Shown here: positions 38,649 to 63,179 of the stretch, in pieces
Position numbering within the stretch: position 1 is the first letter of the stretch
Layout of the letters: each line of letters opens with the position of its first letter
Source of the DNA: Candidatus Zixiibacteriota bacterium
Lineage (GTDB): Bacteria; Zixibacteria; MSB-5A5; GN15; PGXB01
DNA length: 64,000 nucleotides
Assembly: GCA_900498245.1 (NCBI GenBank)
Contig: LS998015.1
Coordinates: 435,882-499,881, forward strand
Direction: 5' to 3'
Made by a program: the position numbers and the translations under genes
The notes under the pieces: model-generated
What the model was told of the DNA's origin: nothing
The model's database searches: none
Seen by the model: the letters and a program-made list of their open reading frames with translations, nothing else

Positions 38649-38721
38649 GCGGGCTAGTATTTGCAGGCTAGACTTTCTCCTAACAGAAATCCCAAACAGA
38701 AATTCAAACATGGAGGAAATG

Positions 38722-46400: not shown

Positions 46401-47572
46401 ATGCATCAGTAGATAATATAACACCCTACTTAACCGAATCCGGTTCCGAGTTCGAGAAACCACTGAAATTGTCAGAAAGCGCGACTCTCGCATTCATAGG
46501 GTCCTATATTCTTGGCTTGGGCTTCATTCTTACGCCTGATGAGCGGCACAAGTTGGTTAACGGCAACAGTCATAATGAAGACGTCATATTTCCGTTCATA
46601 AACGGCGAGGAAATAAATGCGGATCCTGGAAGGTCTCAACCTCGATTTGCCATTAACTTCTTCGATTGGCCTCTAGATAGATCACAATCCGGCTCTTGGA
46701 AGGATGCGTCAGCCCAACAGCGGCGTCAATGGCTAAGGACGGGCCGAGTACCAAGCGATTATCCAGATCCTGTAGCCGCTGATTATCCAGATTGCCTCAA
46801 TATCGTTCAAACTCGAGTTAAACCTGTTCGCGATAAAGTCACATATAGCAAGAGTGCAAGAGAGCAATGGTGGCTTTATGAACGATTGAGAAAGGAGATG
46901 TACGCTGCTACGAGTGGCATGACGAGAATTATCGTATGTTCGTTGATTTCAAAATACACAGCTGTGGAGTTTGTACAACTTCCAGCAGTGTGTAGTCACA
47001 ATACTGTGGTTTTTGCTCGAGACGACTTTGCTCACTTCGCCTTTCTACAGTCGACTGTAAACGCTATCTGGGTTAGCGAAAACATGTCAACATTTGGCAA
47101 GACCCAGATTTATGCTGTTGGCGACTGTGTAGAGACTCTTGTTCTGCCACCTAGAATTAACACTATGTCAACAATAGGCGAAGAATACTATGTGGCGCGG
47201 CGAAAGCTAATGGTCTCTGGCGGCTTAGGGTTGACCTCCTTCTATAACTGCGTGCATGATCCAGAGAACAAGGATCAAGGGATGTCATATATACGAGAAC
47301 TCCAGTGTGAGGTGGATGCTGTAGTTTGCAGCCTTTATGGCTGGAGTGACCTCCAGTTGAACCATGGTTTCTATAAAACGAGGCATGGAGTAAGATACAC
47401 ATTATGTGATGAGGCTCGTAATGCCATCTTTGTTAGACTACTTGAGCTTAATCATCATCAGTATCAGGATGAATGCGAGCAAGGACTTCACGACAAGAAA
47501 TCCAACAAGACCAAGAACAAGCGGGTAGGTAAAAGGAAGAAGGGACATGGCAACGCCGAATTGCCGTTGTGA
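43457..47572 (+). CDS. drmMI: DISARM class 1 N6-adenine methyltransferase DrmMI
   Basis: The product is 1371 residues, the large type IIG-like methylase form. The SAM-binding motif DLNVCDMAMGSGAFLVQSC lies near residue 605, with GVDKNPLAVEMAKLSLWL downstream. The catalytic NPPF is in AFIGNPPFMGGQ near residue 865, which indicates N6-adenine methylation. The N-terminal 500 residues resemble the nuclease-like and helical parts of related enzymes but without a clear nuclease core. The C-terminal part would read the target sequence. It marks the host DNA so that DISARM spares it. Confidence 0.94.
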   Translation: MSIARHHAEWLSLVDQSGPFLSVPVLMRAFPQGLDKPDADLKREMRLAYDEWLQQQHDPAIQTAWIRFVLTQLLEYPDDLIAEGQSLPGGLSALVSEQNETLRPDLAIIHSNGNPSNGKPSLLIQKYRPNQRLESAVAGKHWKASPATRMMELLHATDVPLGLVTNGEQWMLVYAPRNETTGFASWYASLWSEEPATFQAFVSLLSVRRFFGVADSDTLPALLDESAKNQQEVTDQLGLQVRQAVEVLVQAFDRIDQDSGRILLKGMDEKRLYEASLTVMMRLVFLFCAEERKLLPIDEYALYAQSYAVSNLGAQLREVADKHGEEILERSFDAWSRLLAAFRIVYAGVDHESMRLPPYGGNLFNPDRFPFLEGRPPHGTWRDTPAEPLRIDNRTVLHLLEALQWLVVKIPGGGPRERRRLSFRALDIEQIGHVYEGLLDHTAVRATDSILGLSGGKGKEPEIALSKLEQLRDKGEDDLVEFLTKETGRSEKALLKAVSEPVMIDEAKLRVACRNDTNLMKRVLPFVSLIRDDTFGYPVIIAEGSVYVTAGTDRRSSGTHYTPRSLTEPIVQHTLEPLVYEGPAEGVPKDKWRLKTAREILDLNVCDMAMGSGAFLVQSCRYLSERLLEAWETAEKELGGSIQITPEGERSKGVPEERLVPTDPDERSAIAMRIVAERCLYGVDKNPLAVEMAKLSLWLITLSKGKPFTFLDHALKCGDSLVGADAKMFLDWARGGTKEQVTIFDEKLKKLLDDARLKRKELESFEVKDVRDAERKSDLLDEAEMAMQWVKQGCNLLIGTLLSDRSAAEKRTQLNKLLIGYLKDLTVPGPEAVEAIKLADNERAFHWPFEFPEVFERGGFDAFIGNPPFMGGQRITGNLGTYYREYIVIELAGGKRGTADLCVFFFIRGYQLIKHRGILGMLATNTISQGDSREVGLEQICNTNGAILRAIPTQKWPGQINLQVSVVWIGKGDWNYKRTLDDASVDNITPYLTESGSEFEKPLKLSESATLAFIGSYILGLGFILTPDERHKLVNGNSHNEDVIFPFINGEEINADPGRSQPRFAINFFDWPLDRSQSGSWKDASAQQRRQWLRTGRVPSDYPDPVAADYPDCLNIVQTRVKPVRDKVTYSKSAREQWWLYERLRKEMYAATSGMTRIIVCSLISKYTAVEFVQLPAVCSHNTVVFARDDFAHFAFLQSTVNAIWVSENMSTFGKTQIYAVGDCVETLVLPPRINTMSTIGEEYYVARRKLMVSGGLGLTSFYNCVHDPENKDQGMSYIRELQCEVDAVVCSLYGWSDLQLNHGFYKTRHGVRYTLCDEARNAIFVRLLELNHHQYQDECEQGLHDKKSNKTKNKRVGKRKKGHGNAELPL

Positions 47573-47593
47573 CAAATGATACTTGGAGAATAA

Positions 47594-50500
47594 ATGACAG
47601 AATTGCTAGACAAGCCATCAGCATTTGCGATAAGAGATGAACTGCATAAGCTAGTACTCAACGACCTGCTTGGGCCAGCCGGCGGCCCCTCTGAGGAGGT
47701 CGATGAGCAGGCGGTGCGTGAGCGGTATCTGGTCGGTATGTTGGCACCACGCAGGACATCGACAGAACCGAATCAGCAGGATGAATTAGCCGTCGCCGGT
47801 ACCGGGATGGATGAAGATGGTAATGCCGACACTGGTGCCATGCAGGCGGACTCGCTTATCCCGTCATCCTTTGGATTGACCTTTTCAGTGGATTCCAAGG
47901 CCACCGCTATAAGGGTCACGGCTCGTTGGGGTCGATACCAGCGTGAGGAAAGTGCTACACTGACAAATGACAAGGGCAACCCCGCCCGAATCTGGAAACG
48001 CTATCAGATCGAAGCGACGTCGCCAGATATCACACTTGCCGAAGGGAATATCACGCCCTGGGTGGTTGATAAGAACTACCCTGATGTAGTTGTCCGCGGT
48101 GTAATCCGCAAACCAAAGGACAATTACACTGATTGGATCGTGACTTTATTTTTAGTTAACGGCCAACTGGAAACAAAAACACTCAAAGATGAACAGTGGC
48201 TGTTTCAGCCAGAGCTGATCGTCGAAGCCCCCGACAAAAGCCCAATTTTCGTCCGACGGTCTTACAAGCACGATGCCACCCGGATGGACCCGGTAGCATA
48301 CTTCGAAGAACAGACTATGGCGATGCTATATCGGCACAAGAAGGAGTTCGCGGTAGGTCATGGCGTCGCGGTTAATGTAACACAGAGCGAAGGGGACAAC
48401 AGCCGAGCCGTCAGAATCTCAACCGTATCCGTTCCCGTTAGTGAAGTGCCGATGCAGACACCGCCCACAAAAGACGAAATCCCGGAACTATCCAGTTTGA
48501 CGCTGGACATGAAGGCGCTTGCTGAGACTCCGCCAGATCAACTTCCCAGTAAGCTGGAGGCACTACCCAAGGCATATGCTGAATGGATCGAAAAGGAACG
48601 AGCCAAAATTGACTCCGATTCGAGTCTGTCTGAGTTTGAAAAACAAGCCCAGGACGCGGTTGGTAATTGTTCCAAAGCGTGTAAGCGCATTGAAGATGGA
48701 ATAGCGCTTCTTAAGAACGATACTAAGGCCGCCGACGCATTCCTCTTTGCGAACAAGGCTATGTGGTTACAACGCATCCACACCATCTTTGCTGAGCAGG
48801 TCCGCCGCGGCGGCAAGCCGAAACTGGAAGACATTGATAGCGAGAACAACCGAAGCTGGTATCCCTTCCAGCTTGCGTTCATTCTCCTGAATCTGCCGGG
48901 GATCACCATTCTCGACCACCCGGACCGTACGGAAAAGCAGTCTGCCACGGCTGATTTGCTTTGGTTTCCGACGGGCGGCGGTAAGACCGAAGCGTACCTT
49001 GGACTAGCGGCCTACACTCTGGCTATCAGACGATTACAAGGAGAGATCGGCGGACTCGATGGCGAGCACGGAGTCGCGGTCCTGATGCGATATACGCTAC
49101 GAGTGCTGACCCTTCAGCAATTCCAGCGTGCGACGACGTTAATCTGCGCTTGTGAATCAATTCGTCGAGAGAGAATCAAGGACGGTGACAACAGTTTGGG
49201 CAACGAACCATTCCGAATCGGTATCTGGGTCGGTCAACGCACGACTCCGAATACGACGGACCAAAGTGCCGAGGCTGTACGTCTTGACCACGGCCACTTC
49301 CGAAGAGCAAGTATTGCCGCCGGGTCAGGATCACCTGCACAGCTCAAGACCTGCCCCTGGTGTGGCATGGAAATCAAGCCGGGACGAGACATTCAAGTTG
49401 AGGCGTTTACTCAAGGCCGGTGCCGGACATTCACCTACTGCTCGGATCCGCTAGGTCAATGCCTTTTCAGCAGGAAGCAATCCCCGGATGAAGGTATCCC
49501 GGTTCTGCTAGTCGATGAAGAGATATATCGCAGGTTGCCATCACTCCTGATTGCGACCGTCGATAAGTTTGCACAGATGCCCTGGAAGGGCGAGGTGCAA
49601 ATGTTGTTTGGTCGGGTAAACGGATACTGCCCAAGACATGGCTTCCGGTCACCTGAGATAGACGACAGCGATTCGCACCCTAAGAGAGGTTCATTTCCTG
49701 CAGTTAAAACCGTACCTCATGGTCGGCTGCGCCCACCGGACTTGATAATCCAAGATGAGCTACACCTTATTAGCGGACCACTTGGTACCTTGGTTGGCCT
49801 ATATGAGACGGCAGTCGATAAGCTGGCATCTTTCGACCTAAACGGAAAGACGGTAAGGCCAAAGGTCATTGCCTCTACTGCTACTATTCGCCGAGCCGAA
49901 CAACAGGTTCATCAGCTATTCCTCAGGAGAGTCAATATCTTCCCCCCTCACGGTACCGATGTTCGGGACAACTTCTTCTCAATTCAGAGAGAACCGAGCG
50001 AGAAGTTCCCCGGACGAAGGTATTTGGGTATCTGTGCGGTGGGCAAACGCATAAAGACAGCAATCATCAGAACAGACTTGGCATATCTGGCGGCTGCTCA
50101 GAAACTCTACGAAAAATACGGAACGAATGCTGATCCGTGGATGACACTCGTAGCCTACTTCAACTCTATGCGAGAGCTTGGCGGGGCGAGGCGTCTGGTT
50201 GATGACTCAATCCGCTCAATGTTAAGAGAAACGATTCGCCGTGGACTCGCCAACAGAGGCAGACCCCTTGTCAAGGAGCTGACGTCGCGTATGACCGCGA
50301 CGGATATCCCTGAGATCCTTGATCAGCTCGAAGTGACATTCGATCCGGAAATTGAGCGGCAAAGAAAAGAAGCCAGGAAAGCGGGGCGCATGCTCGATCT
50401 CCAGTATCCAATTGACGTGCTCCTGGCGACAAACATGGTCTCGGTCGGTGTTGACGTTAAGCGTCTTGGTTTGATGGTAGTGGTTGGCCAACCAAAGACA

Positions 50501-51130
50501 ACGGCAGAATACATTCAGGCCACCAGCCGTATTGGACGAAACAAGCCCGGTATTGTCTGCACCGTATATAATTGGGCACGCCCCCGGGATTTGTCACATT
50601 ATGAGCGATTTGATCACTACCATGGCACCTTCTATCAGCAGGTCGAAGCTCTATCTCTTACACCATTTGCTGCTCGCGCTATTGATCGCGGCTTGGCGGC
50701 ACTCCTGGTGTCCCTGATTCGACTGGAAAGTGATACCTATAACGCCAACAAATCTGCTGCTGGAGTCAATGCTCAGGATCAACAGGTGATGAATGCGATC
50801 AAGAGTATCATCGAACGCGCTGAACTACTTGCCGACAGGGATGAGTTTAAACAAGTTCGCGACCGCCTCATGCCATTGTTAGACAAGTGGCGAAATTATG
50901 CCAAGCGACCGACTGGCGGGCAGCTGTTGGGGTATCGAACCGAAAAGGACGGTGTTACGGTCGGTCTGCTTCAGCTCGCTGGATTGGGGACGTGGGAAGA
51001 CTTTACGTGCCTAATGTCGCTTCGGGAAGTTGAGCCAAGCGTAAGCCTTATTCTGGACAATCAGGACATTCAAGCCGTTCCTGTTGGTCCGGAAAGCGCT
51101 GACGTCGAGGGAGGGGTTGCCAGTGCCTAA
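47594..51130 (+). CDS. drmA: DISARM helicase DrmA
   Basis: The product is 1178 residues. Walker A is WFPTGGGKTEAYLGLAAY near residue 457. Motif II appears as IIQDELHLISGPLGT near residue 719, an unusual QDEL in place of DEAH that is typical of DrmA. Motifs V-VI are LLATNMVSVGVDVKRLGLMVV and YIQATSRIGR near residues 955-985. A CPWC/CSDPLGQC region near residue 600 probably binds zinc. DrmA works with DrmB as the DNA-entry-blocking core of DISARM. Its end overlaps drmB by 8 bases. Confidence 0.95.
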   Translation: MTELLDKPSAFAIRDELHKLVLNDLLGPAGGPSEEVDEQAVRERYLVGMLAPRRTSTEPNQQDELAVAGTGMDEDGNADTGAMQADSLIPSSFGLTFSVDSKATAIRVTARWGRYQREESATLTNDKGNPARIWKRYQIEATSPDITLAEGNITPWVVDKNYPDVVVRGVIRKPKDNYTDWIVTLFLVNGQLETKTLKDEQWLFQPELIVEAPDKSPIFVRRSYKHDATRMDPVAYFEEQTMAMLYRHKKEFAVGHGVAVNVTQSEGDNSRAVRISTVSVPVSEVPMQTPPTKDEIPELSSLTLDMKALAETPPDQLPSKLEALPKAYAEWIEKERAKIDSDSSLSEFEKQAQDAVGNCSKACKRIEDGIALLKNDTKAADAFLFANKAMWLQRIHTIFAEQVRRGGKPKLEDIDSENNRSWYPFQLAFILLNLPGITILDHPDRTEKQSATADLLWFPTGGGKTEAYLGLAAYTLAIRRLQGEIGGLDGEHGVAVLMRYTLRVLTLQQFQRATTLICACESIRRERIKDGDNSLGNEPFRIGIWVGQRTTPNTTDQSAEAVRLDHGHFRRASIAAGSGSPAQLKTCPWCGMEIKPGRDIQVEAFTQGRCRTFTYCSDPLGQCLFSRKQSPDEGIPVLLVDEEIYRRLPSLLIATVDKFAQMPWKGEVQMLFGRVNGYCPRHGFRSPEIDDSDSHPKRGSFPAVKTVPHGRLRPPDLIIQDELHLISGPLGTLVGLYETAVDKLASFDLNGKTVRPKVIASTATIRRAEQQVHQLFLRRVNIFPPHGTDVRDNFFSIQREPSEKFPGRRYLGICAVGKRIKTAIIRTDLAYLAAAQKLYEKYGTNADPWMTLVAYFNSMRELGGARRLVDDSIRSMLRETIRRGLANRGRPLVKELTSRMTATDIPEILDQLEVTFDPEIERQRKEARKAGRMLDLQYPIDVLLATNMVSVGVDVKRLGLMVVVGQPKTTAEYIQATSRIGRNKPGIVCTVYNWARPRDLSHYERFDHYHGTFYQQVEALSLTPFAARAIDRGLAALLVSLIRLESDTYNANKSAAGVNAQDQQVMNAIKSIIERAELLADRDEFKQVRDRLMPLLDKWRNYAKRPTGGQLLGYRTEKDGVTVGLLQLAGLGTWEDFTCLMSLREVEPSVSLILDNQDIQAVPVGPESADVEGGVASA

Positions 51131-52979
51131 GCAGTTTACCAAGAACAAAGTCGGCGATCTGAGGCCCAGTCAACTCCTGTACTCGTTCGGAATTGGATCC
51201 ATGGTTGATCTGCCCAATCTGTCAGTCATGGTCATGGGGATTGAAGATTGGGATACAACTCAGATGGTGGCGATCGCTGAAGACCGGCTTCTAGCCGCAG
51301 TCCGGAAGGAAGTAGGCAACCAGTTGGAGAGACTCTGTTTTCCACCAATTCCTGAACAGTCCAGTTTGAGTTGGGGAAATCCTTTTGACGAAAGCGCACG
51401 AGTCGGAGTACCAGTGGCACCGTTCCCCCACTGGGTACGCTGTCCCATGTGTGATCTCCTGGCTCCGTTGGATTTTGGGGTTTTTGAACTGAAAACGCGG
51501 GCTTTTCATCACGACCAAACTCGATATGTTCACATAAACTGTAACAAGGCACCTTCACCGCCAACGGTCTTGCCAGCACGTTTTCTGATGGCCTGCGAGA
51601 ACGGGCATATCGATGATTTCCCGTGGATTCAGTACGTGCATAATGGCAGTCCGTGCAAGAACCCAGTGCTTCGTTTACGTGAATGGGGTGTCTCGGGTAC
51701 AGTCTCGGAGGTTCAAGTCAGTTGTGACACCTGTGGTAAAAAGAGAAGAATGCGAGATGCGTTCTTTGAAGATGCGAAGAGTGTTATGCCGATGTGTAAT
51801 GCGAGGAGGCCACACCTTAGAGACCATGACGAAGCGGGATGTAAGCAGCAGATGAAAGCTATTCTACTTGGTGCCTCAAATGCATGGTTTCCGATTACAC
51901 TATCATCGCTTTACATCCCGAAAGCCAAGGATAAGCTATCTAGACTGGTTGAAACGCACTGGAACAATCTGATTCCGGTAACAACTAAGGATATTCTTTC
52001 GGCGTTTAGACAAACACCTCTCCTGAGGCCGTTTTCTGAGTTCTCGGATGACGAAGTTTGGCAAGCCATTGAAACGAAGAGAAACGCGGATAAAGATGGA
52101 TCACAAGAAAGAGCCGCTGATCTTAAGACTCCCGAATGGGAAGCTTTTACCAATCCAGATTCTGTTGGGCATTCCGATGATTTTGAATTGCGCGAGGTCG
52201 ACCCACCTGAACCGCTGAGGGAAGTTTTCGAGCGAGTTATCAAAGTCGAACGAATACGTGAAGTACGTGCACTCACTGGATTCACGAGAATCGAATCCCC
52301 CGGTGATTATGACGATATTGGAACGATACCTGAGGAAAAGCGAGCTCCTTTATCGCGAAAGCCGCCATTATGGGTGCCCGCAGCTGAGATCCGAGGTGAA
52401 GGGATATTCATTCAATTCCGCGAGGAAATTCTATCAGCGTGGATAAAGAAAAACGCGGAGAGAGAAGGTGAGTTTAGGCAAGCTCATATCAATTGGCGCA
52501 AAGTTCGGGGCATCAAACCACCCGAAGCAGGATTCCCCGGAATACTGTACGTTCTGCTACATTCATTTTCGCATGCGCTCATGAGGCAAATCACACTTGA
52601 GTGTGGGTATACTGCCGCAAGTATTAGAGAGCGCATTTACTCAAGAGATGCTGGCGCTGACTCAACACCCATGTCTGGAATCTTGATATATACCGGTGCA
52701 AGTGATAGTGAAGGAACGTTAGGTGGATTGGCAAGCCTGGCGAAGCCTCAATTACTCCTGCGGCACATCGACCAAGCACTAGAGGCAATGCGGCTATGTG
52801 CTTCAGATCCACTCTGTAGCGAACACCATCCCTTCAAGGAGGGAATCACACTTCACGGGGCTGCTTGTCACGCCTGCCTATTCGCTCCGGAAACATCCTG
52901 CGAACGTGGCAATAAGTATCTTGATAGAACTGTGCTGGTAAAGACATTTGATTCAAACGTTGTGCCATTCTTTGGATGA
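51123..52979 (+). CDS. drmB: DISARM protein DrmB (DUF1998)
   Basis: The product is 618 residues from GTG 51123, which follows GGAGGGG; the longer frame from 51084 lies wholly within drmA. The N-terminus has KVGDLRPSQLLYSFGIGSMVDLPN, the DrmB start. Zinc-type cysteines occur as CPMC near residue 110, CDTC near residue 205, and CHAC...CERG near the end. The DUF1998 core is LLHSFSHALMRQITLECGYTAASIRERIYS. Class 1 and class 2 DISARM both need DrmB. The stop overlaps the drmC start. Confidence 0.95.
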   Translation: MPKQFTKNKVGDLRPSQLLYSFGIGSMVDLPNLSVMVMGIEDWDTTQMVAIAEDRLLAAVRKEVGNQLERLCFPPIPEQSSLSWGNPFDESARVGVPVAPFPHWVRCPMCDLLAPLDFGVFELKTRAFHHDQTRYVHINCNKAPSPPTVLPARFLMACENGHIDDFPWIQYVHNGSPCKNPVLRLREWGVSGTVSEVQVSCDTCGKKRRMRDAFFEDAKSVMPMCNARRPHLRDHDEAGCKQQMKAILLGASNAWFPITLSSLYIPKAKDKLSRLVETHWNNLIPVTTKDILSAFRQTPLLRPFSEFSDDEVWQAIETKRNADKDGSQERAADLKTPEWEAFTNPDSVGHSDDFELREVDPPEPLREVFERVIKVERIREVRALTGFTRIESPGDYDDIGTIPEEKRAPLSRKPPLWVPAAEIRGEGIFIQFREEILSAWIKKNAEREGEFRQAHINWRKVRGIKPPEAGFPGILYVLLHSFSHALMRQITLECGYTAASIRERIYSRDAGADSTPMSGILIYTGASDSEGTLGGLASLAKPQLLLRHIDQALEAMRLCASDPLCSEHHPFKEGITLHGAACHACLFAPETSCERGNKYLDRTVLVKTFDSNVVPFFG

Positions 52980-53791
52980 GCAATATGAGTATTTCTGCAG
53001 AAATCGCGGATCTAATAAGACGAGTAGCTCGGATATCATCCCCCAACCTCCTGCTACCTGTATGCGACGAACTCGAGCAATTACCGGCTGATGCTGATTT
53101 CGATCACATAACTTCTCTGCTTCGCCATGTTCAACATGCTGATACCCGAACCTGTCTCTTGGAAATCGTGTCAGCCTTCAAATCTCATGATCTTCAAGTA
53201 AATGCGGCTTCTCTCTCATTGGCCCTAAGATCTGCCATACCCAGCTTAGAAAGTCAGGGTGAAGAAACGGTTCTGGAACTTGTATGGAGTGGCCCTTCAA
53301 AGCCATTTTCTACCATTCGACGTACTGATCAAGCGTTGGCTGACATCATTGCAGAATCTCAGCAGTCGATTCTAATAGTCTCCTTTGCTGTCTACAAGGT
53401 TCCAGGAATTATGAATAGTTTGCGAGAGGCTGTCGACTGAGGCGTGTCAGTCAAGATCATAATCGAGACGGAAAAGGATAGCCACGGAAGACTCAAGGCC
53501 GATGGTTTGAATGAAATCTTAGGCTCAGGTATCCAGATAGCAGATGTATACGTGTGGCCAGAGTCCGAGAGACCTAGTAGTGACAAAGGCTACACGGGAG
53601 TGTTGCATGCCAAATGCTCGGTAGCGGATTCGCGGGTGGCTCTGATTTCAAGCGCAAATTTGACAGAGGCTGCTATGGATTTGAATATGGAAATGGGTAT
53701 CGTCATCCGCGGGTCTGAGGTTCCCTCAATTATTCATGATCACTTCAATTCACTCATTAGCAAAGGGGTCATCTCTCGGGTCGGCCATTAG
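52976..53791 (+). pseudogene. drmC: DISARM phospholipase-D-like protein DrmC, interrupted by an in-frame TGA
   Basis: Joined across the stop, the product would be 271 residues, a normal DrmC length. The first part (52976-53440, 154 residues) ends in NSLREAVD. The second part resumes in the same frame directly after TGA 53438-53440 with GVSVKIIIE. PLD proteins usually have Arg-Gly here, so CGA to TGA is the simple explanation. The catalytic HxKxxxxD (HAKCSVAD) lies only in the second part. GTG 53444 could allow a separate restart. It may be a broken gene, a split gene or a sequencing error. Confidence 0.85.
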
Positions 53792-54021: not shown

Positions 54022-54900
54022 TCATCTTCTGCCATAACGCCCAACCATCATTATTTCAGATGGTGCTGATAACTCCGCCGGTCTGGATTCCTGCTCCGCC
54101 CTCATTTCGTTGGCACCGTCGTCCTTAGTGAAGTCTATCCCCAACTCCTTTGCTTTGCGCTTGATCAAATCTGTGAACATTGCGCCAGGACGCTCGCGGA
54201 TGCGGCCGAGCTGCTCGGCTTCCTTCACTTGACTAAGGGCTTCATGTATTGCTCGCTCAGGTAGCAACCTCACTATCTTGCGGTAGAATGCCAATGATCT
54301 CTTGTCTCTGCATTGTTCCAGAATCTGTCGTGCCATGTATTCACGCTTGTCACGGGTAGACTTATCCACAGGTACTCTTCTAATGGGTTTATTAACGGTG
54401 TTACTAAACGTTATAGATGTCTTTTGTTGATCTGTATCTTGTGTGTGGTCTTTTTCTACCAGGGCTTGTGGACTTTCTTCTACAAGAGGCCTTGTAGTAT
54501 TGTTCCACCAGGGGGTATTAACAATGTTCAGGGCATATTCCGACGATTCATTACCATTTTCCGGAGAGGATTTCCTTGTGTGAACCAAGATTCCCTTGGA
54601 AACAAGCGCTCTTACGGCTCTAATAACAGTCTTCTTGTCCAAACCAGTGCCTTTATCAAGAATACTACCATCCTTCTTCTGGATGCCGTTTGTCATCTGT
54701 GAGAGGCTGATGTGATCAGAATCACGCTTAAATCCAAACGTGCGCCTTACTACATATAGCAAGACCTTTACTTCAGATCCAGAAAGCTCCGAGAGTAGCT
54801 CATCGAACAACTCATCGGGAACCTGTGTATATCTTGGGCTGGAAAAGCCAACAAACTGGCCGTTTTCGTTTCTCATATGAGGAAATATACTATAAGACAT
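54022..54900 (-). CDS. Replication-initiator-like winged-helix protein
   Basis: The product is about 292 residues from ATG 54900; 54909 and 54876 are other possible starts. FVGFSSPRYTQVPDELFDELLSELSGSEVKVLLYVVRRTFGFKRDSDHISL-type sequence is the N-terminal DNA-binding domain of phage/plasmid replication proteins (O-protein or RepA-like). KGTGLDKKTVIRAVRALVSKGIL is a second helix-turn-helix. The C-terminal part has AIHEALSQVKEAEQLGRI, which may contact the host helicase. Its promoter-like TTGACA and TATGCT lie upstream. It probably starts replication of the element when excised. Confidence 0.75.
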   Translation of the reverse strand: MSYSIFPHMRNENGQFVGFSSPRYTQVPDELFDELLSELSGSEVKVLLYVVRRTFGFKRDSDHISLSQMTNGIQKKDGSILDKGTGLDKKTVIRAVRALVSKGILVHTRKSSPENGNESSEYALNIVNTPWWNNTTRPLVEESPQALVEKDHTQDTDQQKTSITFSNTVNKPIRRVPVDKSTRDKREYMARQILEQCRDKRSLAFYRKIVRLLPERAIHEALSQVKEAEQLGRIRERPGAMFTDLIKRKAKELGIDFTKDDGANEMRAEQESRPAELSAPSEIMMVGRYGRR

Positions 54901-54904
54901 CCTT

Positions 54905-54934
54905 AGCATAGCACATTTTCAATAGTACTGTCAA
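54905..54934 (-). promoter_or_regulatory. Promoter of the replication-protein gene
   Basis: Read on the minus strand, TTGACA (54934-54929) and TATGCT (54910-54905) are 18 bases apart. Transcription would begin near 54898, so translation from 54900 or upstream would be impossible or nearly leaderless. This makes the downstream ATG at 54876 a real candidate. Confidence 0.5.
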
Positions 54935-55108
54935 ATGTGACCCAACATTTATCCCCTTGACAGGTTCTGTGAGTGTGCTAAGCTGTGCCGTTTTATTGAG
55001 CATCGTGATCCACGCTTAGTAGAATTGCAAATAGCCCTTTCCGGCAATTGCCACGCGTCATTGGTTATGTACAATGAATCGGTACAGAAACAAAAACAAA
55101 CAATAACT

Positions 55109-55393
55109 ATGTCCTTCAGTGCGAATTCACAATGCACCAACAGAATAAGAGCAGTCCGTCGGCGCCGCGGACTACTCTTGAAGGACGTGGCCAAAATGGC
55201 CGGCTTAACTGGTGCTGCTCATATTAGTCACTGGGAGAAATCCCGAAAGATGCCCAGTCTGAGAAACGCCTTGTTGCTTTCGGCAGCGTTGAAGTGTCCG
55301 GTCGAGATTTTGTTTCTGGACCTGTTTAACCAAGTAAGAAAACAAACCTATGAAAACCAATCACGTCACGGGATCAAACTCAACTACGACTAA
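55109..55393 (+). CDS. XRE-family helix-turn-helix regulator
   Basis: The product is 94 residues from ATG 55109; the frame extends to 55025 without support. TNRIRAVRRRRGLLLKDVAKMAGLTGAAHISHWEKSRKMPSLRNALLLSAAL is a typical XRE/Cro domain. It is divergent from the replication gene and overlaps the resolvase gene, so it probably represses the replication and maintenance genes. Confidence 0.85.
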   Translation: MSFSANSQCTNRIRAVRRRRGLLLKDVAKMAGLTGAAHISHWEKSRKMPSLRNALLLSAALKCPVEILFLDLFNQVRKQTYENQSRHGIKLNYD

Positions 55394-55901
55394 TACTCGA
55401 GATCGAAAAGCTCCTATTGCGTTAGTTGCAATAGACCCAGGCATTGCCAATCTTGGCTTAGCGACCTTTGAAGGGCGAAAGTTAACTGACTACACGGTCA
55501 AAACAATTCCTCAAAGACCCCTTGTAAGGAGCCGGCTCCTTCTACTACAGGAGATATTGGAGCGTTATCTTGATGAGAAACATCCCTCGAAGATCGCTCT
55601 CGAAAAAACGAACTTCTCTTCATCTACGCATAACGGTCTTTTGGTGCTGGTTTACTACAAGATTCTTGCCATTGCCCGGCACAAGCGAATAGAAGTCAGC
55701 GAGTATAGCCCGATCACTGTGCGTAAGGCAGTTTGTGGCAATGGACACGCCACGAAACGAGACGTCATGAAGATCCTTGTTAGTCGGTATCCGGAACTAC
55801 GTGTCTTTTCGGGGTCTGATCGCCGATATAAGGAACGCCATTTTTATAATCTATTCGATGCAGTGGCTGTGGGTTTGGCCCATCTGAAGCGAAGAAGTTA
55901 A
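55350..55901 (+). CDS. RuvC-like Holliday-junction resolvase
   Basis: The product is 183 residues. The RNase-H-fold catalytic residues are visible: D29 in ALVAIDPGIANLGLA, E85 in KIALEKTNF, and D170 in HFYNLFDAVAVGLAHL. HYKILAIARHKRIEVSEYSPITVRKAVCGNGHATKRDV-like sequence follows the RuvC pattern as well. Such resolvases are common on phages and plasmids. It overlaps the XRE gene by 44 bases and precedes a Replic_Relax gene by 1 base. It may process joint molecules during element replication or recombination. Confidence 0.85.
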   Translation: MKTNHVTGSNSTTTNTRDRKAPIALVAIDPGIANLGLATFEGRKLTDYTVKTIPQRPLVRSRLLLLQEILERYLDEKHPSKIALEKTNFSSSTHNGLLVLVYYKILAIARHKRIEVSEYSPITVRKAVCGNGHATKRDVMKILVSRYPELRVFSGSDRRYKERHFYNLFDAVAVGLAHLKRRS

Positions 55902-55902
55902 G

Positions 55903-56859
55903 ATGGCCCAAAAACAACATAGTCACCTTACTACAATAGCATCTGAAATCAGGAATACTACACCAATCATAGAGTCAGGAATTAGAATAACACCGAGGGA
56001 TATTTGTGTCTTGGAATCGGTAGCAGAGAATCAATTTCTCACAACGACCCAGATATGTGCGTCGCACTTTCCATCCCTGCACCGCACCCGGAAAAGATTG
56101 AACAGGCTCTGGAGCTGTGGTTTTCTCCAGAGAATAATAGTGCCACATGGGCTTGAAGGCCTGCCTCCTGAAGCAGTGTATTCTATCAGTAGAAGGGGGC
56201 GACAATTACTCCTGTCGCACGGCGGGGGTATCGAGAGTATCGCAATTCCGAAGCTGAAATCACGTCCCGGTAGCCTTTTGTTTCTAAGTCACACACTGTT
56301 CAGAAATAGCTTTAGAATCGCCCTTGAGGACTTCGTGCGGAATAATCCCTCCGTTTCACTACAAGCTTGGAGGCATGATGCATCTATCACGCTCCGACTA
56401 GTTGTCCCAGACAAGCGAACTCAGACACTCCAGAGAGTCTCGCTTAGAGCCGATGCCTATTTCCGGCTGATCAAAAACGATTGGGAATCTGAGTTCTATC
56501 TAGAAGCAGACAATGGAACAATGACCTTGACTCGGCTAACGGCAAAACTAAAAGCATATCAAATCTGGCGACAATCTCCGATGCATGCCACCAACGCTAC
56601 CACCATGTGTACACGTGTTCTTGTTCTGATGTCTTCAAGGAAGCGCGCCGAGAACCTGGTTGAGACGATATCGAGATCCTCCCGAACTAGCCCGGCCAAC
56701 CCATTGTTGCTCATTGCCTACATCAAGCGAGACACTCTTATTAAAACGTGTGTTCTCGGAAACCTGCATTGGTGCCAGTTTGAGCATAAGAGAGCCAGAA
56801 AGGTCACTTTACTGCAAGAACTGGACCGACTTAGCACTGGACAAAAGGACGCACCATAG
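55903..56859 (+). CDS. Replication-relaxation family (Replic_Relax) protein 1
   Basis: The product is 318 residues. ITPRDICVLESVAENQFLTTTQICASHFPS followed by RKRLNRLWSCGFL is the winged-helix start of Replic_Relax. The central part (SRPGSLLFLSHTLFRNSFRIALEDF, LRADAYFRLI, YLEADNGTMTLTRL) has the acidic residues of the nuclease-like core. Members are linked to plasmid replication and mobilisation, but their chemistry is not established. A second family member lies at 60.3-61.2 kb. Confidence 0.82.
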   Translation: MAQKQHSHLTTIASEIRNTTPIIESGIRITPRDICVLESVAENQFLTTTQICASHFPSLHRTRKRLNRLWSCGFLQRIIVPHGLEGLPPEAVYSISRRGRQLLLSHGGGIESIAIPKLKSRPGSLLFLSHTLFRNSFRIALEDFVRNNPSVSLQAWRHDASITLRLVVPDKRTQTLQRVSLRADAYFRLIKNDWESEFYLEADNGTMTLTRLTAKLKAYQIWRQSPMHATNATTMCTRVLVLMSSRKRAENLVETISRSSRTSPANPLLLIAYIKRDTLIKTCVLGNLHWCQFEHKRARKVTLLQELDRLSTGQKDAP

Positions 56860-56933
56860 ATATATTTATAACAATCTATAAGATTGGCGAATAGATATGG
56901 TTGGGTAAGACAGTCGCACTAGAGGTACAAGAA

Positions 56934-58469
56934 ATGCCATCCAAGGTTGTGAGAAAACGAGCTGCCGAGCTTTTTAACGAAGCATTGAGGGCACAGAGTC
57001 AATGGGACTTCAGAAAAAGCAGGCAGTTGAGTGCCAAAGCGTACAGAGTCGCCTTCATTGCGGCCGACTATGACATGTGTATTAAATGCTTAATTCTTGA
57101 ATCCAATTGTAGTTGGTACCTCGGTGACTTTGTGGTCTACGATAGGTCAATTGGCCAAGCAGTTACACTCAGTGAACAATATGCAGTGACCCCGCATTCG
57201 TACATGATTGCCCACCTCCGAAAGTGCGCTTATCTCCGAGAGCAAATGCACTTTAAAGAAGCAATTTCTTACGCGAACAAAGCACTCCGATTAGCAAGAA
57301 AAGAGCAGGATAGTGAGATCGAATACTATGCATTGCTCGCGCTCGCTAGGATCCATGAGGAAAACTATAACCACGAATACAGTCTCGTTTACTGTCGTAC
57401 TGCAAAGGATGTTGCTGCGAAAATGAACAGGCCAACTGTAACGGCAGAAGTGCAATATCAGACGGCGAAAGTACTTGTGGGGCAGAAGCGATTCTCTGAT
57501 GCACTTGACCTACTCGCAAGTGCCGAGCAACAACTGAATATACACAAAAACCCAGAGCTCATTTCCGACATGCGGTATCTGGCATCTTGTATTTATGGTG
57601 AGGTTGGGGACAGAGGCAAAGTAGAAGACACATTTAAGGATTTGTTTTTCATAAGGTCCTCTTTCAGGGAATCAGATCACTTTGCCGCAGAGATCGAGGG
57701 TCGCAACCGTGTACCAGATGTGGTAGCACGTCAACCTAATTCTGTATCGCAGCTTGAGTCCATAAGACTTAACTTGGAACAAAGTGGCCTTCAAGATCAT
57801 TTTCCCCTTGTGTATGTGTTTTTGGGAGGTTCCTTCCTGCTAGCAAAGAACTATGTGAGAGCGACGGAGAGCTATTGGAACGCCGCGGAGTTGCTGTGCA
57901 AGCTCCTCCCGGACAATCACATCAAGTTCTTCTTTGTCCTCCGGCAGCTTTGTACCTGTCTACAAATGACAGATAACGACAAAAGTGCGGTCCAATTGGG
58001 ATCACTTGGGACAAAGGGTGAAAAGCTCTTTGAGAAAACAGGATCCGTAGAAGATGTCATTACCGAGAAGCGGCGAGCGTACATTCATGGGCTTCCAGCA
58101 AATCTGCATGCCATTCGTTACTATTTGAGTCGGTACTTCAAGTGGAACAAAATCACAATTGACTTTGAAACGGGCGAAATTAGGAAGAACAAAAGGGTGG
58201 TGAAAAGGAAAATCCGCCAAAAACTAGTCCCTGTTAAGTTGACCAGCCGACAGATAAGAGTCCTCAGGAAGCTTGCAGAACGAATGCCAATGCCTGTAAC
58301 ATTTGATGAGATTGTCGAGGCGGCGGACGGATGCTCGCCGGCCGCAGGTGTTCCTACACGTGATCGCGCGAAATACTATCGAGACGAAATATGCGAGCGA
58401 GTAGGAGTCAATTTCATTGTATCTTCTTGGGGAACTGGCTTTCATATTCCAAAGGAAACCGCCTCCTAA
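56934..58469 (+). CDS. TPR protein with C-terminal OmpR-type winged helix
   Basis: The product is 511 residues from ATG 56934, with AGAGGT 7 bases upstream; a TTG at 56901 is the alternative. Residues 1-350 are TPR-like helix pairs (FKEAISYANKALRLARKEQDSEIEYYALLALARIHEE-type units). After a basic linker, residues 415-511 read like Trans_Reg_C: ITIDFETGEIRKNKR, VKLTSRQIRVLRKLAERM and a final hairpin VNFIVSSWGTGFHIP. The order TPR then DNA-binding is the reverse of SARP regulators. It probably regulates the element's genes in response to a protein or peptide signal, but this is not demonstrated. Confidence 0.65.
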   Translation: MPSKVVRKRAAELFNEALRAQSQWDFRKSRQLSAKAYRVAFIAADYDMCIKCLILESNCSWYLGDFVVYDRSIGQAVTLSEQYAVTPHSYMIAHLRKCAYLREQMHFKEAISYANKALRLARKEQDSEIEYYALLALARIHEENYNHEYSLVYCRTAKDVAAKMNRPTVTAEVQYQTAKVLVGQKRFSDALDLLASAEQQLNIHKNPELISDMRYLASCIYGEVGDRGKVEDTFKDLFFIRSSFRESDHFAAEIEGRNRVPDVVARQPNSVSQLESIRLNLEQSGLQDHFPLVYVFLGGSFLLAKNYVRATESYWNAAELLCKLLPDNHIKFFFVLRQLCTCLQMTDNDKSAVQLGSLGTKGEKLFEKTGSVEDVITEKRRAYIHGLPANLHAIRYYLSRYFKWNKITIDFETGEIRKNKRVVKRKIRQKLVPVKLTSRQIRVLRKLAERMPMPVTFDEIVEAADGCSPAAGVPTRDRAKYYRDEICERVGVNFIVSSWGTGFHIPKETAS

Positions 58470-58522
58470 TCCTCCCAGTTTCCTTCCTATCGTAATCCTA
58501 TCCTGAAGCCCTTATTAAGGGC

Positions 58523-60286
58523 ATGATAAGAAGGATTATTGCCATTTCGTTTGGTCTGATTCTGGGCGTAAGCAGCCCTATCCCATCACAATCGGACAAC
58601 TATCATGCTACGGACGTCTATTCGAGCCACATTACAGAATCCAGTTTCAAGATAGAACCGTCGCCCGATAAGCTCCCGTCAGCTTACCGAGTGACATCAG
58701 CAACAAGCCAGTCGCCGGGTGCGCTGAATCGGACATGCGACAATACTCTAGCATGGAGGTGCACTATAGGTATCAGAAAACCAACTAAGAACGAGAGTCA
58801 AGCATGTGGAACTTTCCTAGAACGCCAGTTCCTCAACGTCCTTCAACCCATTACTGATCTAATTGGTAGGACATTACACCAGCGCGGTCGGCCTCCGACA
58901 GAGCAGTCTATCAGTATAGGCTACTCACGCAATGCCTTTCATCCAACCGAGGTGATCGAAGAACTCTTATCGATATCACACCTAACTAAGGGCATTTATG
59001 TCTGCGGTAAGTCCGGCATGGGCAAGACAACGTTCATTCGACTACTGACAACTCAATTTATGAGGGCTGGTTTAGGATTCATAGTCATTGATCCACATGG
59101 CGACCTCTCACAGGCAATTTTGAATGTCATTTGCCAAACATGCAGGACTGAAGAGGAATTCGACTTCGTATGTGAACGCCTGATACTGCTTGAGCTATTC
59201 CATCCAACTTTAGTGCCTCGCATCAACTTGCTTCACTCTAATCGCCCCGAGCAGGCTTACGTTGAGGCCATTGAAATGTTGGCGATCTTTAAGAGAATCT
59301 TTAGTGATGTGGCATGGGGAGCACGAATGGAGGAAACCTTACGAAACGTGCTCTTGACCCTCTCCCTGAGTGGCCACCCCCTTATCGACGCTCCCCGGCT
59401 ACTTACTGATTCAGCATTTCAAGATGAAATCGTCAACTCACTCAGCGATCCCGACCTGCTCTTCTATTGGAAATCTCGCTTTGCGGGATTTTCTGATAGG
59501 ATGAAGCCGATGATAACAGAGCCTGTCTCGAATAAGCTATCGGTACTGACAGAGGGTCCGTTGATGCGCCATCTGGCGGCTCAAACAGAGTCACTCATCG
59601 ACTTCCGCCGCCTGCTTGATAACCGCAACTGGGTAATTATTAACCTCAGCAAAGGACTACTCGGTCAACATTCCAAGCTGCTGGGATCGATATTCACTGC
59701 CAAAATCAAATCTTCGGCAATGTCTCGAGCAGATATCCCGGAAGCTGACCGTATTGTATCACCACTCCTCATTGACGAATTTCAGAACTTCTCTGGTGAT
59801 AACTACGAGGAGATACTTTCAGAGGCACGTAAGTATCGCTTGGCGCTTCTTTTAGCTCATCAGAACCTCGACCAGATCAAGCGGTCCATGCGTGCTGCTA
59901 TCTTTGGTAATGTCGGGACAATGCTGTTGTTCAGACTTGGTCACCGTGATATCAGCGAGTTTGCGCAGGAATTCAACTCGACGAATCAACCGTTGGTGAG
60001 ACAGGCGCTTGCCAGCCTACAGATCGGAGAGATGGTCAAACGTGAGGATGATGGTAGTTTCTGCAGAATTCAGGTGCCGCGACCTAACGAGTTGGTGGTT
60101 AATGGTGCGGTTGAGGAACGGCTTCGACAGGCTTGCTACGCCAAATACTACCGGCCACGCGCTGAGATCGATGCCGAGCTAATCAAGGCACGCAGCGCTT
60201 CAGCGCGACCGTCTGTGGTCATCTACGGTACTTCAAAGTCGGCGGGAAAACCGCCGTCAGACGCTGCTGACGAGGTGTCACGATGA
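58523..60286 (+). CDS. Second HerA/VirD4-like P-loop ATPase
   Basis: The product is 587 residues. It differs from the 34.5 kb paralogue by an extra N-terminal 130 residues with a possible membrane or signal segment (IIAISFGLILGVSSP). Walker A, VCGKSGMGKTTFIRL, is near residue 162, FIVIDPHGDLSQAIL near residue 190, and Walker B, LLIDEFQNFSGD, near residue 417. AHQNLDQIKRSMRAAIFGNVGTML matches the same stretch in the paralogue. It overlaps a Replic_Relax gene by 4 bases. The membrane-like start and this pairing favour a role as a coupling protein in DNA transfer. Confidence 0.85.
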   Translation: MIRRIIAISFGLILGVSSPIPSQSDNYHATDVYSSHITESSFKIEPSPDKLPSAYRVTSATSQSPGALNRTCDNTLAWRCTIGIRKPTKNESQACGTFLERQFLNVLQPITDLIGRTLHQRGRPPTEQSISIGYSRNAFHPTEVIEELLSISHLTKGIYVCGKSGMGKTTFIRLLTTQFMRAGLGFIVIDPHGDLSQAILNVICQTCRTEEEFDFVCERLILLELFHPTLVPRINLLHSNRPEQAYVEAIEMLAIFKRIFSDVAWGARMEETLRNVLLTLSLSGHPLIDAPRLLTDSAFQDEIVNSLSDPDLLFYWKSRFAGFSDRMKPMITEPVSNKLSVLTEGPLMRHLAAQTESLIDFRRLLDNRNWVIINLSKGLLGQHSKLLGSIFTAKIKSSAMSRADIPEADRIVSPLLIDEFQNFSGDNYEEILSEARKYRLALLLAHQNLDQIKRSMRAAIFGNVGTMLLFRLGHRDISEFAQEFNSTNQPLVRQALASLQIGEMVKREDDGSFCRIQVPRPNELVVNGAVEERLRQACYAKYYRPRAEIDAELIKARSASARPSVVIYGTSKSAGKPPSDAADEVSR

Positions 60287-61170
60287 CAATCAAGAGAAAA
60301 GGACAGCGTCAATCTCGTTTCACCCGCCACAAGCGCGTTAGGCAGGTGATACTTCAACCACGTGACATGGATATTATCGTTGCTGTCTTTCAATCCCGCT
60401 TCCTCACCCGTGAGCAGATCCAGGGGATGTTTGATGTTTCCTGCGTAACGGTTGTCAATCGTACGCTGCGGAGACTCTTTGATGCGGGATTCCTCGACCG
60501 TCGATTTCTGCCACTTCTCCAGGGAAGTTCCCAAGCCATGTATTTTCTTGGTCAGCGCGGGATCCCCATTGTCAGCGAACGGTTGAATCTTGATCCTGAT
60601 GAAGTGGCTCGTAAACGTCGGCGCGACCAGGCACTTCGGACAGACCTGTTCCAGCATGAACGTCTTATCAATGACTTTCGGATACAATTGGAGACAGGGG
60701 GTTCAGAATCTTCAGTGTCCGTGGAACGCTTTCTGCATGCAAGAGAGTGCGAATGTAAGTTCGGCATACGGACCGGAGGTCGAGAGGTCAAATACTACCT
60801 GAAACCAGACGGCTACTTCGAGTTGAAGTCATCTCGGTCGCTGAGCAGCTATTTCCTCGAAATTGATCGTTCCACCAGCGGATTACGTAAGCTGAGTACG
60901 AAGTTCAAAACTTACCTGGCCTATCAAAACGCAGGCATTTTTGAGAAGCTATTCAACCGAGATTGCTTCACCGTTCTCATTGTAACTCTGAGTCCTCAAA
61001 GAGCTACGAACCTTATAAAACTCGCTGAGAGGCTCCAGTGTGACTTCTTCTACTGCACCAGCCAGCCCTTATTGACAGAAAAGGGGGCACTCGGTGGCGT
61101 CTGGATTCAACCAGGCTCGACCACTCCGGGGCCACTTCCCTCAATCAGCGTGAGGCGGGCTGAGATATGA
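60283..61170 (+). CDS. Replication-relaxation family (Replic_Relax) protein 2
   Basis: The product is 295 residues. LQPRDMDIIVAVFQSRFLTREQIQGMFDVSC with NRTLRRLFDAGFLDRRFL is the family's winged-helix start. FQHERLINDFRIQLE, LKPDGYFELKS and YFLEIDRSTSGLRKLSTKFKTYLAY follow the pattern of the first copy. The gene is coupled to the ATPase before it and to a zinc-ribbon membrane protein after it, which makes a four-base-overlap operon. It may act on DNA that the ATPase moves. Confidence 0.83.
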   Translation: MTIKRKGQRQSRFTRHKRVRQVILQPRDMDIIVAVFQSRFLTREQIQGMFDVSCVTVVNRTLRRLFDAGFLDRRFLPLLQGSSQAMYFLGQRGIPIVSERLNLDPDEVARKRRRDQALRTDLFQHERLINDFRIQLETGGSESSVSVERFLHARECECKFGIRTGGREVKYYLKPDGYFELKSSRSLSSYFLEIDRSTSGLRKLSTKFKTYLAYQNAGIFEKLFNRDCFTVLIVTLSPQRATNLIKLAERLQCDFFYCTSQPLLTEKGALGGVWIQPGSTTPGPLPSISVRRAEI

Positions 61171-61577
61171 GACTTTGCTTCCATTGCCTACGGTGGAGAG
61201 CCGGTGATAGCCCCAGATGCCCATATTGTGGATTGGGGCGGTCCGCACTATGCTCGGCTGGCCATGAAAATCCGCCAGATGCCAATGTGTGCGGTACTTG
61301 CGGTCGTGGAGATCTGTCACCGGCAGCTCCACCGCCTCGTTCCCTTCGTGTTCTTCGAGTCGTCTTCAAATTGACCCTCTGGCTGATAATTATCATTTTT
61401 GGATTCAGCCTTATTCAAGGGATGACTCAAGCTGTACGTGGGGGAATGGCAACTCCGTTTATCTTGGCCATCGCATTCCTGCTTGTAGCCCTGAACGTCT
61501 GCTCGAGAGTACTCGGATTCAAAATCGGCAAAGCCATAGTGAGACTAATATGGAAACTGTTTTCCAGAAAACACTAA
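61167..61577 (+). CDS. Small double zinc-ribbon membrane protein
   Basis: The product is 136 residues. Two zinc-ribbon halves fill the first 50 residues: CFHC...CPYC and CSAGHENPPDANVCGTCG. Two hydrophobic helices follow (FKLTLWLIIIIFGFSLI and ATPFILAIAFLLVALNV), then a basic end. Such proteins often sit at the inner membrane with the ribbon in the cytoplasm. It ends the coupled operon with the ATPase and Replic_Relax gene. Function is unknown. Confidence 0.75.
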   Translation: MRLCFHCLRWRAGDSPRCPYCGLGRSALCSAGHENPPDANVCGTCGRGDLSPAAPPPRSLRVLRVVFKLTLWLIIIIFGFSLIQGMTQAVRGGMATPFILAIAFLLVALNVCSRVLGFKIGKAIVRLIWKLFSRKH

Positions 61578-61798
61578 CAAACCATCTGTGGAACAGAATA
61601 TCCACGGGTCAAATCGTTTGCCGACGGCGAGTGATTGACGGGGATAAGCCTGCATCCAAGTTCTTGTTTGGCAATTGCTTTTCAGTCCGACCCCTGTGTG
61701 AAGAAGTCAGCTCAAAGGTAGTGCAATTGACTACACTACCTTTTACACCGGGTGGTATTCCCCTCACTTCTAGGATCCTTGCGAGGCTGACGTTGTGA
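61550..61798 (+). CDS. Hypothetical protein
   Basis: The product would be 82 residues from ATG 61550, which overlaps the previous gene; the frame is open upstream to 61289 but is then antisense-like noise. There is no clear ribosome binding site. It is basic and Cys/Ser-rich with no recognised family. It may not be translated. Confidence 0.25.
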   Translation: METVFQKTLTNHLWNRISTGQIVCRRRVIDGDKPASKFLFGNCFSVRPLCEEVSSKVVQLTTLPFTPGGIPLTSRILARLTL

Positions 61799-61965
61799 GA
61801 AAAGGCGTGGAAACATCAAGAGGAGAAAGGAAGGAAAGGATTGAGATGATTGCTGAACATCTTCTAACAGGAGCTACCAGAGTCATGGTTTCGGCTATCT
61901 CCGGACAAACGGAGACAGCCGTCATAGAAGAAAACAAACAACCTCTATCAAAGGAGATTATAGTC

Positions 61966-62373
61966 ATGAGAACCACACTAACAATTCAGACTATTAGTAG
62001 TCTTGCAGATTTCGTGGAATGGGTGCGGTCTGCTTGCCACGCCTCCTACGAAGAAACGAATTCGCAACCGCGCAAGAAGGACAAGATCAACCTCAACGCA
62101 GTGCCTGAGGCAGCCGCCTCAATAGCCGCTGATGAATTTGTCCAAAAACTGCCCCCGGAGTATACAAAGCGGACAACCAAACCCAACCCCCTTCTGTCCA
62201 CTGGCAGGAAGATTGACCTGCGAAAACCTGTTCCGGCAGAAATCGTCCTCAGTACGTTGAAACGAATGAAAACTCTTATTGTAGGCGATGAACCCGATAA
62301 TGAAGCCTCTGGCTTCAATACCTGCAAAAGAGCCCTCTCTACTCCATCTAGCACTCGTCTGGAGGTACAATGA
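61966..62373 (+). CDS. Hypothetical protein before the lipoprotein gene
   Basis: The product is 135 residues from ATG 61966, with AAGGAG 9 bases upstream. Alternative starts in the same frame are ATG 61846 and GTG 61795. SSLADFVEWVRSACHASYEE is a helical start; a Lys/Pro-rich middle follows. No domain was recognised. The stop overlaps the lipoprotein start by 4 bases, so they belong to one operon. Confidence 0.55.
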   Translation: MRTTLTIQTISSLADFVEWVRSACHASYEETNSQPRKKDKINLNAVPEAAASIAADEFVQKLPPEYTKRTTKPNPLLSTGRKIDLRKPVPAEIVLSTLKRMKTLIVGDEPDNEASGFNTCKRALSTPSSTRLEVQ

Positions 62374-63179
62374 TGTATGTCACTGACGCCTTAAAAGTGT
62401 TGCTGACTGCATTGCTCATAATAGGTCTCCTATCCTTAGGAGGATGCACAAACCAAGAAGGTCACGTAGAACCATTGATCAGGATGCAATACATACCTAT
62501 TAGAGTAGTCACATTCTTCGACATAACCGGCTCTGCGGTCGAGCACGGGGTACCGATAGTTGACAGCATCAGCATGGCCCCAATTGTCGAGTACGTGCTT
62601 GAAAACGGTGGTGAAGTAGCGATCGGGACTATCGAATCGGTCAGTGAACGCCCACTATTACGGTTGCGAGTCGATGTTCCTCCTCAGCCACCGACCGATG
62701 GCTCACAACAGAGCCAGAATGTCTTTCTCGCTGCCAAGCAAAAGGCAGCCTATGAAAAGAGGTTTACTTCATACCAGAGCCGTCTGAAAAGGTGGAAGGA
62801 CAAAAACCAACTGGCTATGAGGGGATTCTGGCAGTCAGTTCGAGAATTGCTGGCTATGCCAGCTAAGGAAAGTTCCACCGACGTCAGAAATGCCGTGCTT
62901 CGGGGAAATGCATTCTTGTCTGAATCGGATGCGTCCTGGAACGGTCCTACTCTCAGGTTTGCCATTTTATGCACGGACGGAGAGCACAATGTCAAAAGCC
63001 AACCGACAATCGTACCGGTCGATAGCACGGTTTACATTCTGGTTCCGGGAATTCGGGAAGGATGCCTGACATCCCTAAATCCTATCAAGTTCGAGAGCCT
63101 TCCCTCGGCTATTCGCTATGTAATATCCGGTGAGAAGTTTGTATCAAATGCAGCGGTCACTGCACAGAAAGGAGGCTAA
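62370..63179 (+). CDS. Lipoprotein with von Willebrand A-like domain
   Basis: The product is 269 residues. The signal ALLIIGLLSLGGC is a good lipobox. IRVVTFFDITGSAVEHG near residue 45 resembles a vWA metal-site strand with D and T/S, and LRFAILCTDGEHNV near residue 203 the later D-containing strand. STVYILVPG follows. The middle part is helical (SYQSRLKRWKDKNQLAMRGFW). Such proteins may gather partners at the envelope. It is placed between a small unknown gene and a membrane protein, which suggests a surface complex for transfer. Confidence 0.6.
   Translation: MMYVTDALKVLLTALLIIGLLSLGGCTNQEGHVEPLIRMQYIPIRVVTFFDITGSAVEHGVPIVDSISMAPIVEYVLENGGEVAIGTIESVSERPLLRLRVDVPPQPPTDGSQQSQNVFLAAKQKAAYEKRFTSYQSRLKRWKDKNQLAMRGFWQSVRELLAMPAKESSTDVRNAVLRGNAFLSESDASWNGPTLRFAILCTDGEHNVKSQPTIVPVDSTVYILVPGIREGCLTSLNPIKFESLPSAIRYVISGEKFVSNAAVTAQKGG

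Follow-up and report, generated by a model that had tools for sequence, protein, structure and literature searches.

A putative mobilisation module with its own coupling ATPase and two MOBC-type relaxases in a tRNA-Asp-associated element of Candidatus Zixiibacteriota

The genome of Candidatus Zixiibacteriota bacterium GCA_900498245.1 is complete in a single contig of 3.51 Mb (LS998015.1), of which we analysed one part, a stretch of 64,000 nucleotides (positions 435,882 to 499,881; hereafter the window, whose own numbering is used below). Within it, a run of plus-strand genes very probably forms the mobilisation module of an integrative and mobilisable element (IME) with its own coupling ATPase and a MOBC relaxase; we read the region as such because the module lies in a recombinase-bearing element at a tRNA-Asp. 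The run comprises, in order, a helix-turn-helix (HTH) gene, a RuvC-like gene (55350–55901), a Replic_Relax gene (RR1, 55903–56859), a gene for a TPR protein, a VirD4/HerA-type ATPase gene, here called T4CP for type IV coupling protein (58523–60286), a second Replic_Relax gene (RR2, 60283–61170) and a gene for a zinc-ribbon protein with two transmembrane (TM) helices (zinc-ribbon/2-TM, 61167–61577). The assignment is supported by sequence homology, by active-site residues that are intact, by overlapping genes, by conservation, by the setting in an element and by a left part of that element which different genera share. For comparison, loci were fetched from the 15 Replic_Relax carriers in a sample of 132 genomes of the phylum.

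Relaxases and coupling ATPase

Both RR1 (92.6 bits against a cut-off of 25.3, E 4.2e-26) and RR2 (66.1 bits, E 5.7e-18) match the Pfam family Replic_Relax (PF13814). Coluzzi et al. list this family as a MobC-type relaxase domain (PMC5357655, Table 1), and TraX of pAD1, which has been studied by site-specific mutagenesis, is assigned together with CloDF13 MobC to MOBC, a family related to PD-(D/E)XK endonucleases, in a review of 2025 (PMC12857230). TraX of pAM373, annotated as a replication-relaxation protein, lies near a T4CP gene on a MOBC-typed plasmid and passes the PF13814 cut-off; a profile built from the proteins of this phylum alone, TraX excluded, retrieves it at 4.6e-6, and a phylum-only profile retrieves its T4CP neighbour at 2.9e-15. 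We take the TraX triad to be D152, E170 and E172 (numbering attributed to Francia 2013). At the columns aligned to these residues, Asp, Glu and an acid are found in 35 of 35 proteins, including RR1 (D184, E201 and the acid) and RR2 (D176, E193 and D195). Judged by their sequences, RR1 and RR2 are thus predicted members of MOBC with its catalytic triad.

AlphaFold models made from six-sequence alignments (mean pLDDT 78 for RR2, ma947e3d8616a; 66 for RR1, m86c00df1df6c) predict a MarR-like winged helix plus a helix–strands–helix domain that bears the triad. Foldseek matches the winged helix with a probability near 1, and the strand and helix order of the second domain is compatible with PD-(D/E)XK; the models give provisional support to a nuclease-like fold. 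The RR1 and RR2 types sit in separate deep branches of a tree whose long branches limit its use to this one separation; they are not recent duplicates. Searches with tblastn against plasmids and phages returned one distant plasmid match for each and no phage match for RR1, and RR-based scans of viral contigs yielded zero new relatives. A third Replic_Relax subfamily occurs in one further genome (G002; loci L059, L060 and L061), where two of the loci share four conserved neighbours (clusters c32–c35) with no T4CP nearby.

The T4CP (587 residues) passes the thresholds of both DUF87 (HerA; 28.1 versus 23.2) and TraG-D_C (25.4 versus 22.0), and its Walker A motif (G162–T169) and D418–E419 are invariant among the ATPases compared; it is therefore predicted to combine the RecA/HerA-type motor and the TraG-D_C recognition domain of VirD4-type proteins. 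A membrane-type N-terminus, which had been claimed for it in an earlier note on this DNA, is not borne out: hydropathy stays below 1.6 over every 19 residues, and no N-terminal TM domain appears beyond a short hydrophobic run at residues 4–16. Most homologues of the same branch likewise have no N-terminal TM helix, which is present in the type found in elements A and C. The small protein encoded at 61167–61577 has hydropathy peaks at 65 and 98; its zinc ribbon falls below the Pfam threshold (0.015), while a homologue at locus L050 reaches 1.7e-5. An N-terminal TM helix occurs in four of the ATPases (those of elements A and C, L047 and L048), none of which has a zinc-ribbon/2-TM gene beside it; the gene accompanies the ATPase branch devoid of that helix. 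This complementarity fits the known subgroup of coupling proteins that have no TM domain and act with small membrane partners, but it could stem from one event, because each set forms one branch. The zinc-ribbon/2-TM protein is a possible partner of the T4CP in the membrane. At four loci (L050, L052, L053 and L054), a gene for a ThiF-family protein and one that looks JAB-protease-like by eye lie directly 5' of the T4CP gene. A scan of genome contigs with the T4CP alignment turned up seven distant loci, most of them in Patescibacteria, none with a Replic_Relax gene within reach.

Conservation, integration site and links to transfer genes

The T4CP and RR2 genes overlap by 4 bp, as do the RR2 and zinc-ribbon/2-TM genes. 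Every ATPase-linked Replic_Relax copy in the fetched loci overlaps or abuts its ATPase gene (12 of 12, from 8 genomes, spacing −4 to 0 bp), a linkage that is not chance. The zinc-ribbon/2-TM gene immediately follows RR2 in eight loci, the window and seven others; a RuvC-like gene (cluster c2; Pfam RuvC 4.3e-12 in the window, 1 bp from RR1) is present in twelve loci, as is a serine recombinase gene (cluster c4), and together with the invariable overlap these recurrences define a conserved element core. The RuvC-like gene and RR1 overlap or adjoin each other in six loci. Cluster c3, a mixture of tyrosine recombinases, was not used. Three element-like regions occur in the host genome, the window and two others with the same parts; in each of the other two, the two Replic_Relax genes overlap with the RuvC-like gene and the ATPase gene, respectively.

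The integration site is a tRNA-Asp (ARAGORN, 28711–28786, plus strand). The open reading frame of a large serine recombinase (28777–30330, minus strand) has its terminus within this tRNA (overlap 28777–28786), and the integrated element therefore extends rightward from that overlap. Moving away from the tRNA, Lamassu- and DISARM-type cargo and a second HerA/VirD4-like ATPase are followed by the mobilisation module. In another genus (genome G083), the same tRNA-Asp carries a recombinase of 96% (95.7%) and a soluble ATPase of 90% protein identity, and DNA identity with the window is 82–88% in the left part of the element against 69–72% in the adjacent chromosome. The element thus has what is expected of an IME, its own integrase at a defined site that is used likewise in another genus. 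Two more genera have a recombinase and what by eye reads as a recombinase remnant, respectively, at this tRNA, so that a serine recombinase or a remnant adjoins it in three other genera and it qualifies as an integration hotspot. The earlier note had the genes in place, as open reading frames and Pfam domains confirm, but its span was too narrow, since the element begins at the tRNA-Asp; the recombinase and the soluble ATPase (34553–35863, minus strand) were absent from it.

Outside the phylum, the ATPase–Replic_Relax pair has VirB4-like genes and further genes for conjugal transfer as neighbours on Staphylococcus pWBG707 and on plasmids of Niallia and Bacillus; in Embleya and Herpetosiphon, too, VirB4-like genes lie next to it. 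The plasmid pWBG707 is conjugative (PMC13249265), and transfer from one Bacillus strain to another has been obtained with pGIAK1, which carries Replic_Relax, VirD4 and VirB4 (PMC3756968). The earlier note had called for a search for conserved pairs, which the 12 phylum copies and these plasmids supply, and had made its proposal depend on a nuclease-like active site or a link to transfer genes. Both were found, as the intact MOBC triad and the VirB4/TcpE-type genes beside the pair on plasmids. The best reading is accordingly that a mobile element encodes a relaxase and its coupling protein as a pair, with the triad intact and the ATPase and RR2 genes overlapping. The note's remark that no classical relaxase was seen fails, as RR1 and RR2 belong to the family of MOBC relaxases, and its term 'unrecognised' has to go because Replic_Relax equals MOBC (PMC5357655, PMC12857230) and IMEs with VirD4 and MobC have already been described (PMC5704250).

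Proposed mechanism and its alternatives

In the mechanism that we propose, the large serine recombinase would insert the element into the chromosome at the tRNA-Asp. RR2, and probably RR1 too, would act as a relaxase of the MOBC type, its winged-helix head binding DNA and its PD-(D/E)XK-like nuclease nicking the excised circular element at an origin of transfer (oriT). The nicked DNA would then pass to the VirD4/HerA-type ATPase and be pumped outward through a channel that a helper element provides; the zinc-ribbon/2-TM protein is the likely membrane partner of this ATPase. RR1, beside the RuvC-like resolvase, might serve as a second relaxase or as a replication or resolution nickase. A covalent link to DNA has not been seen for MOBC relaxases (PMC12857230), which makes a resolvase partner that would re-join the DNA after nicking an attractive conjecture.

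Several observations weigh against this scheme. The G083 contig stops before the position of the module and that genome gives zero Replic_Relax matches, so sharing is demonstrated for the left part of the element only, and the module itself has not been seen to move. Neither repeats of the tRNA end nor a search of relatives located the right end; no oriT was found, the direct-repeat search was empty, and the sole clean inverted repeat (61714–61743) may be a terminator. Foldseek matches to nuclease structures are weak (E about 0.003–0.04: SSO0001 0.019, AddB 0.03, XisH-like 0.04, Cdn1 0.003). CloDF13 MobC could not serve as a reference in the sequence comparisons, as the record used is frameshifted and unannotated at that gene. 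No channel is at hand, because the element has no mating-pair formation (MPF) gene and the complete host genome has no VirB4 or VirB10 by four models. TIGR00929 is weak on TcpF-type VirB4, and the VirB4 search was therefore rerun with a MOBC-associated VirB4 model and NF045971. The 14 other carriers gave no convincing VirB4 or VirB10, only faint matches; the same search gave 1014 bits for a true VirB4 of genome G086. VirB4-like matches at 1e-8 are confined to 3 of the 132 genomes, none a Replic_Relax carrier. We read the faint matches as HerA-like ATPases (at most 120 residues matched in frames of 384–523 residues), and one VirB4 candidate, C_068 of element C, was rejected as a HerA-like ATPase with a SIR2-like gene next to it. 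A relaxase of its own without a complete set of MPF genes is also what distinguishes an IME.

Transfer could dispense with a classical type IV channel altogether: as a minimal DNA exporter of the inner membrane, the MOBC relaxase, ATPase and zinc-ribbon/2-TM protein would release a strand for uptake by the recipient's competence machinery, in what would be a relaxase-guided relative of Thermus transjugation, and the RuvC-linked relaxase would handle re-circularisation or replication. We think this unlikely; ComEC is encoded in the host genome. It is quite improbable that the genes are a replication module, in which nicking by RR1 and RR2 would let the excised element begin its own replication, with the HerA-type ATPase as helicase alongside RepO-like and RuvC-like proteins and transfer uninvolved. 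The Pfam name of Replic_Relax, the RepO-like protein at 54022–54909 and the six loci that join RuvC-like and RR1 genes would suit such a role, but RR2 overlaps a VirD4-type ATPase gene, the pair occurs elsewhere among conjugation genes, and TraX, the experimentally studied family member, is a relaxase. RR1 alone could be a replication nickase.

A HerA-type ATPase paired with a predicted nuclease, in an element rich in defence genes, also recalls HerA–nuclease complexes for DNA repair or phage defence such as NurA–HerA and HerA–DUF4297, with the ATPase feeding DNA to the Replic_Relax nuclease. This is very improbable, given TraG-D_C above cut-off, a weak PADLOC match of the ATPase (mad8, 3.5e-11), the occurrence of the same pair on conjugative plasmids and the MOBC-specific triad; NurA was not found beside the ATPase among the Pfam and NCBIfam matches of ten genes (54022–63179). 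Hardly credible, finally, is the view that an integrative conjugative element has decayed here, losing its mating-pair genes and its mobility. MPF genes are indeed not found and the cargo gene drmC is interrupted by a stop, but the frames of the T4CP, RR1, RR2, the RuvC-like protein and the recombinase are uninterrupted and their active sites intact, the module recurs in three regions of the host genome and in relatives, and none of the related phylum loci has MPF genes that could have been lost.

An IME with VirD4 and MobC is a recognised kind of element. What is new is the presence of two deeply diverged MOBC relaxases per element, one linked to a RuvC-like gene and one to the ATPase, and the lack of VirB4 and VirB10 in the complete host genome, with no convincing match in 14 other carriers either. 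A family whose Pfam name says little is hereby tied, in a phylum that has received little study, to relaxases known from experiment, with a clear catalytic prediction. Relaxase/ATPase elements are shared by different genera of a lineage in which VirB4 is nearly absent, so either helpers are rare and transient or a channel goes unrecognised. The layout of one RuvC-linked and one ATPase-linked relaxase offers a testable division of labour.

Neighbouring genes and comparison with known systems

The HTH_3 regulator gene (55025–55393, plus strand; Pfam 3.9e-10; cluster c5, 10 loci) lies 5' of the RuvC-like gene. The TPR protein (56901–58469, plus strand; cluster c6, 8 loci) has TPR matches only and is probably a regulator; by eye, its C-terminus reads as a winged helix. 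Beside the recombinase lie Lamassu-type LmuA (PADLOC 3e-71) and LmuB (8e-146), a stretch (30649–34336) missing from the related left end in G083. The soluble HerA/VirD4-like ATPase is 36% identical to the T4CP and 54% to its copy in element C, where it recurs with a three-gene block (37177–39783) at 48–60% identity; two of the block genes are present with the ATPase in G083 (90–93%). A DISARM-like set follows (40254–53791; DrmD, methyltransferase, DrmA, DrmB and DrmC by PADLOC, the methyltransferase lying outside that scan), whose drmC (52976–53791) has one in-frame stop. Element C also has a HerA-like ATPase (DUF87 2e-19) beside a gene that is SIR2-like by eye (L015:6927-11745), probably a defence pair. 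To the right, after the module (G000:C1:499063-510802), are genes for a membrane protein, a DsbA-like protein, a 1668-residue CARDB/Por_Secre_tail protein and a pPIWI-associated nuclease; they have a counterpart in none of the related loci.

Among known systems, TdtA of Thermus ICEth1 resembles the window ATPase in being HerA-like and encoded on a tRNA-integrated element; it drives DNA donation although ICEth1 has no classical type IV secretion system (PMC5365140). ICEth1, however, pairs TdtA with NurA and a restriction enzyme where the window has a MOBC relaxase, and the transfer that it promotes is of chromosomal DNA in general. The Replic_Relax gene directly follows the ATPase gene on pWBG707 and in Niallia, as it does here, while a Bacillus subtilis plasmid has a gap of about 0.5 kb; these plasmids continue with a conjugal transfer protein, TcpE and VirB4-like genes, and the window does not. 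TraX and its T4CP (pheromone plasmids pAD1, pAM373 and pTEF1) share with the window the Pfam family, the Asp/Glu/acid triad and a close T4CP gene. Sequence identity is at a level of about 20%, TraX lies some 860 bp from its T4CP gene, whereas the window genes overlap, and its plasmid has a full channel where the window has none; the window adds a second relaxase with RuvC. MobB–MobC of CloDF13, a MOBC1 mobilisable plasmid, likewise combines its own T4CP with a MOBC relaxase and no channel (PMC7431656, PMC7434980), as do streptococcal IMEs with their own VirD4 and MobC relaxase (PMC5704250). The three-helix TM domain of MobB is essential, whereas the window ATPase has no clear one, and the window differs from CloDF13 and the streptococcal IMEs alike in co-encoding a zinc-ribbon/2-TM protein and two relaxases.

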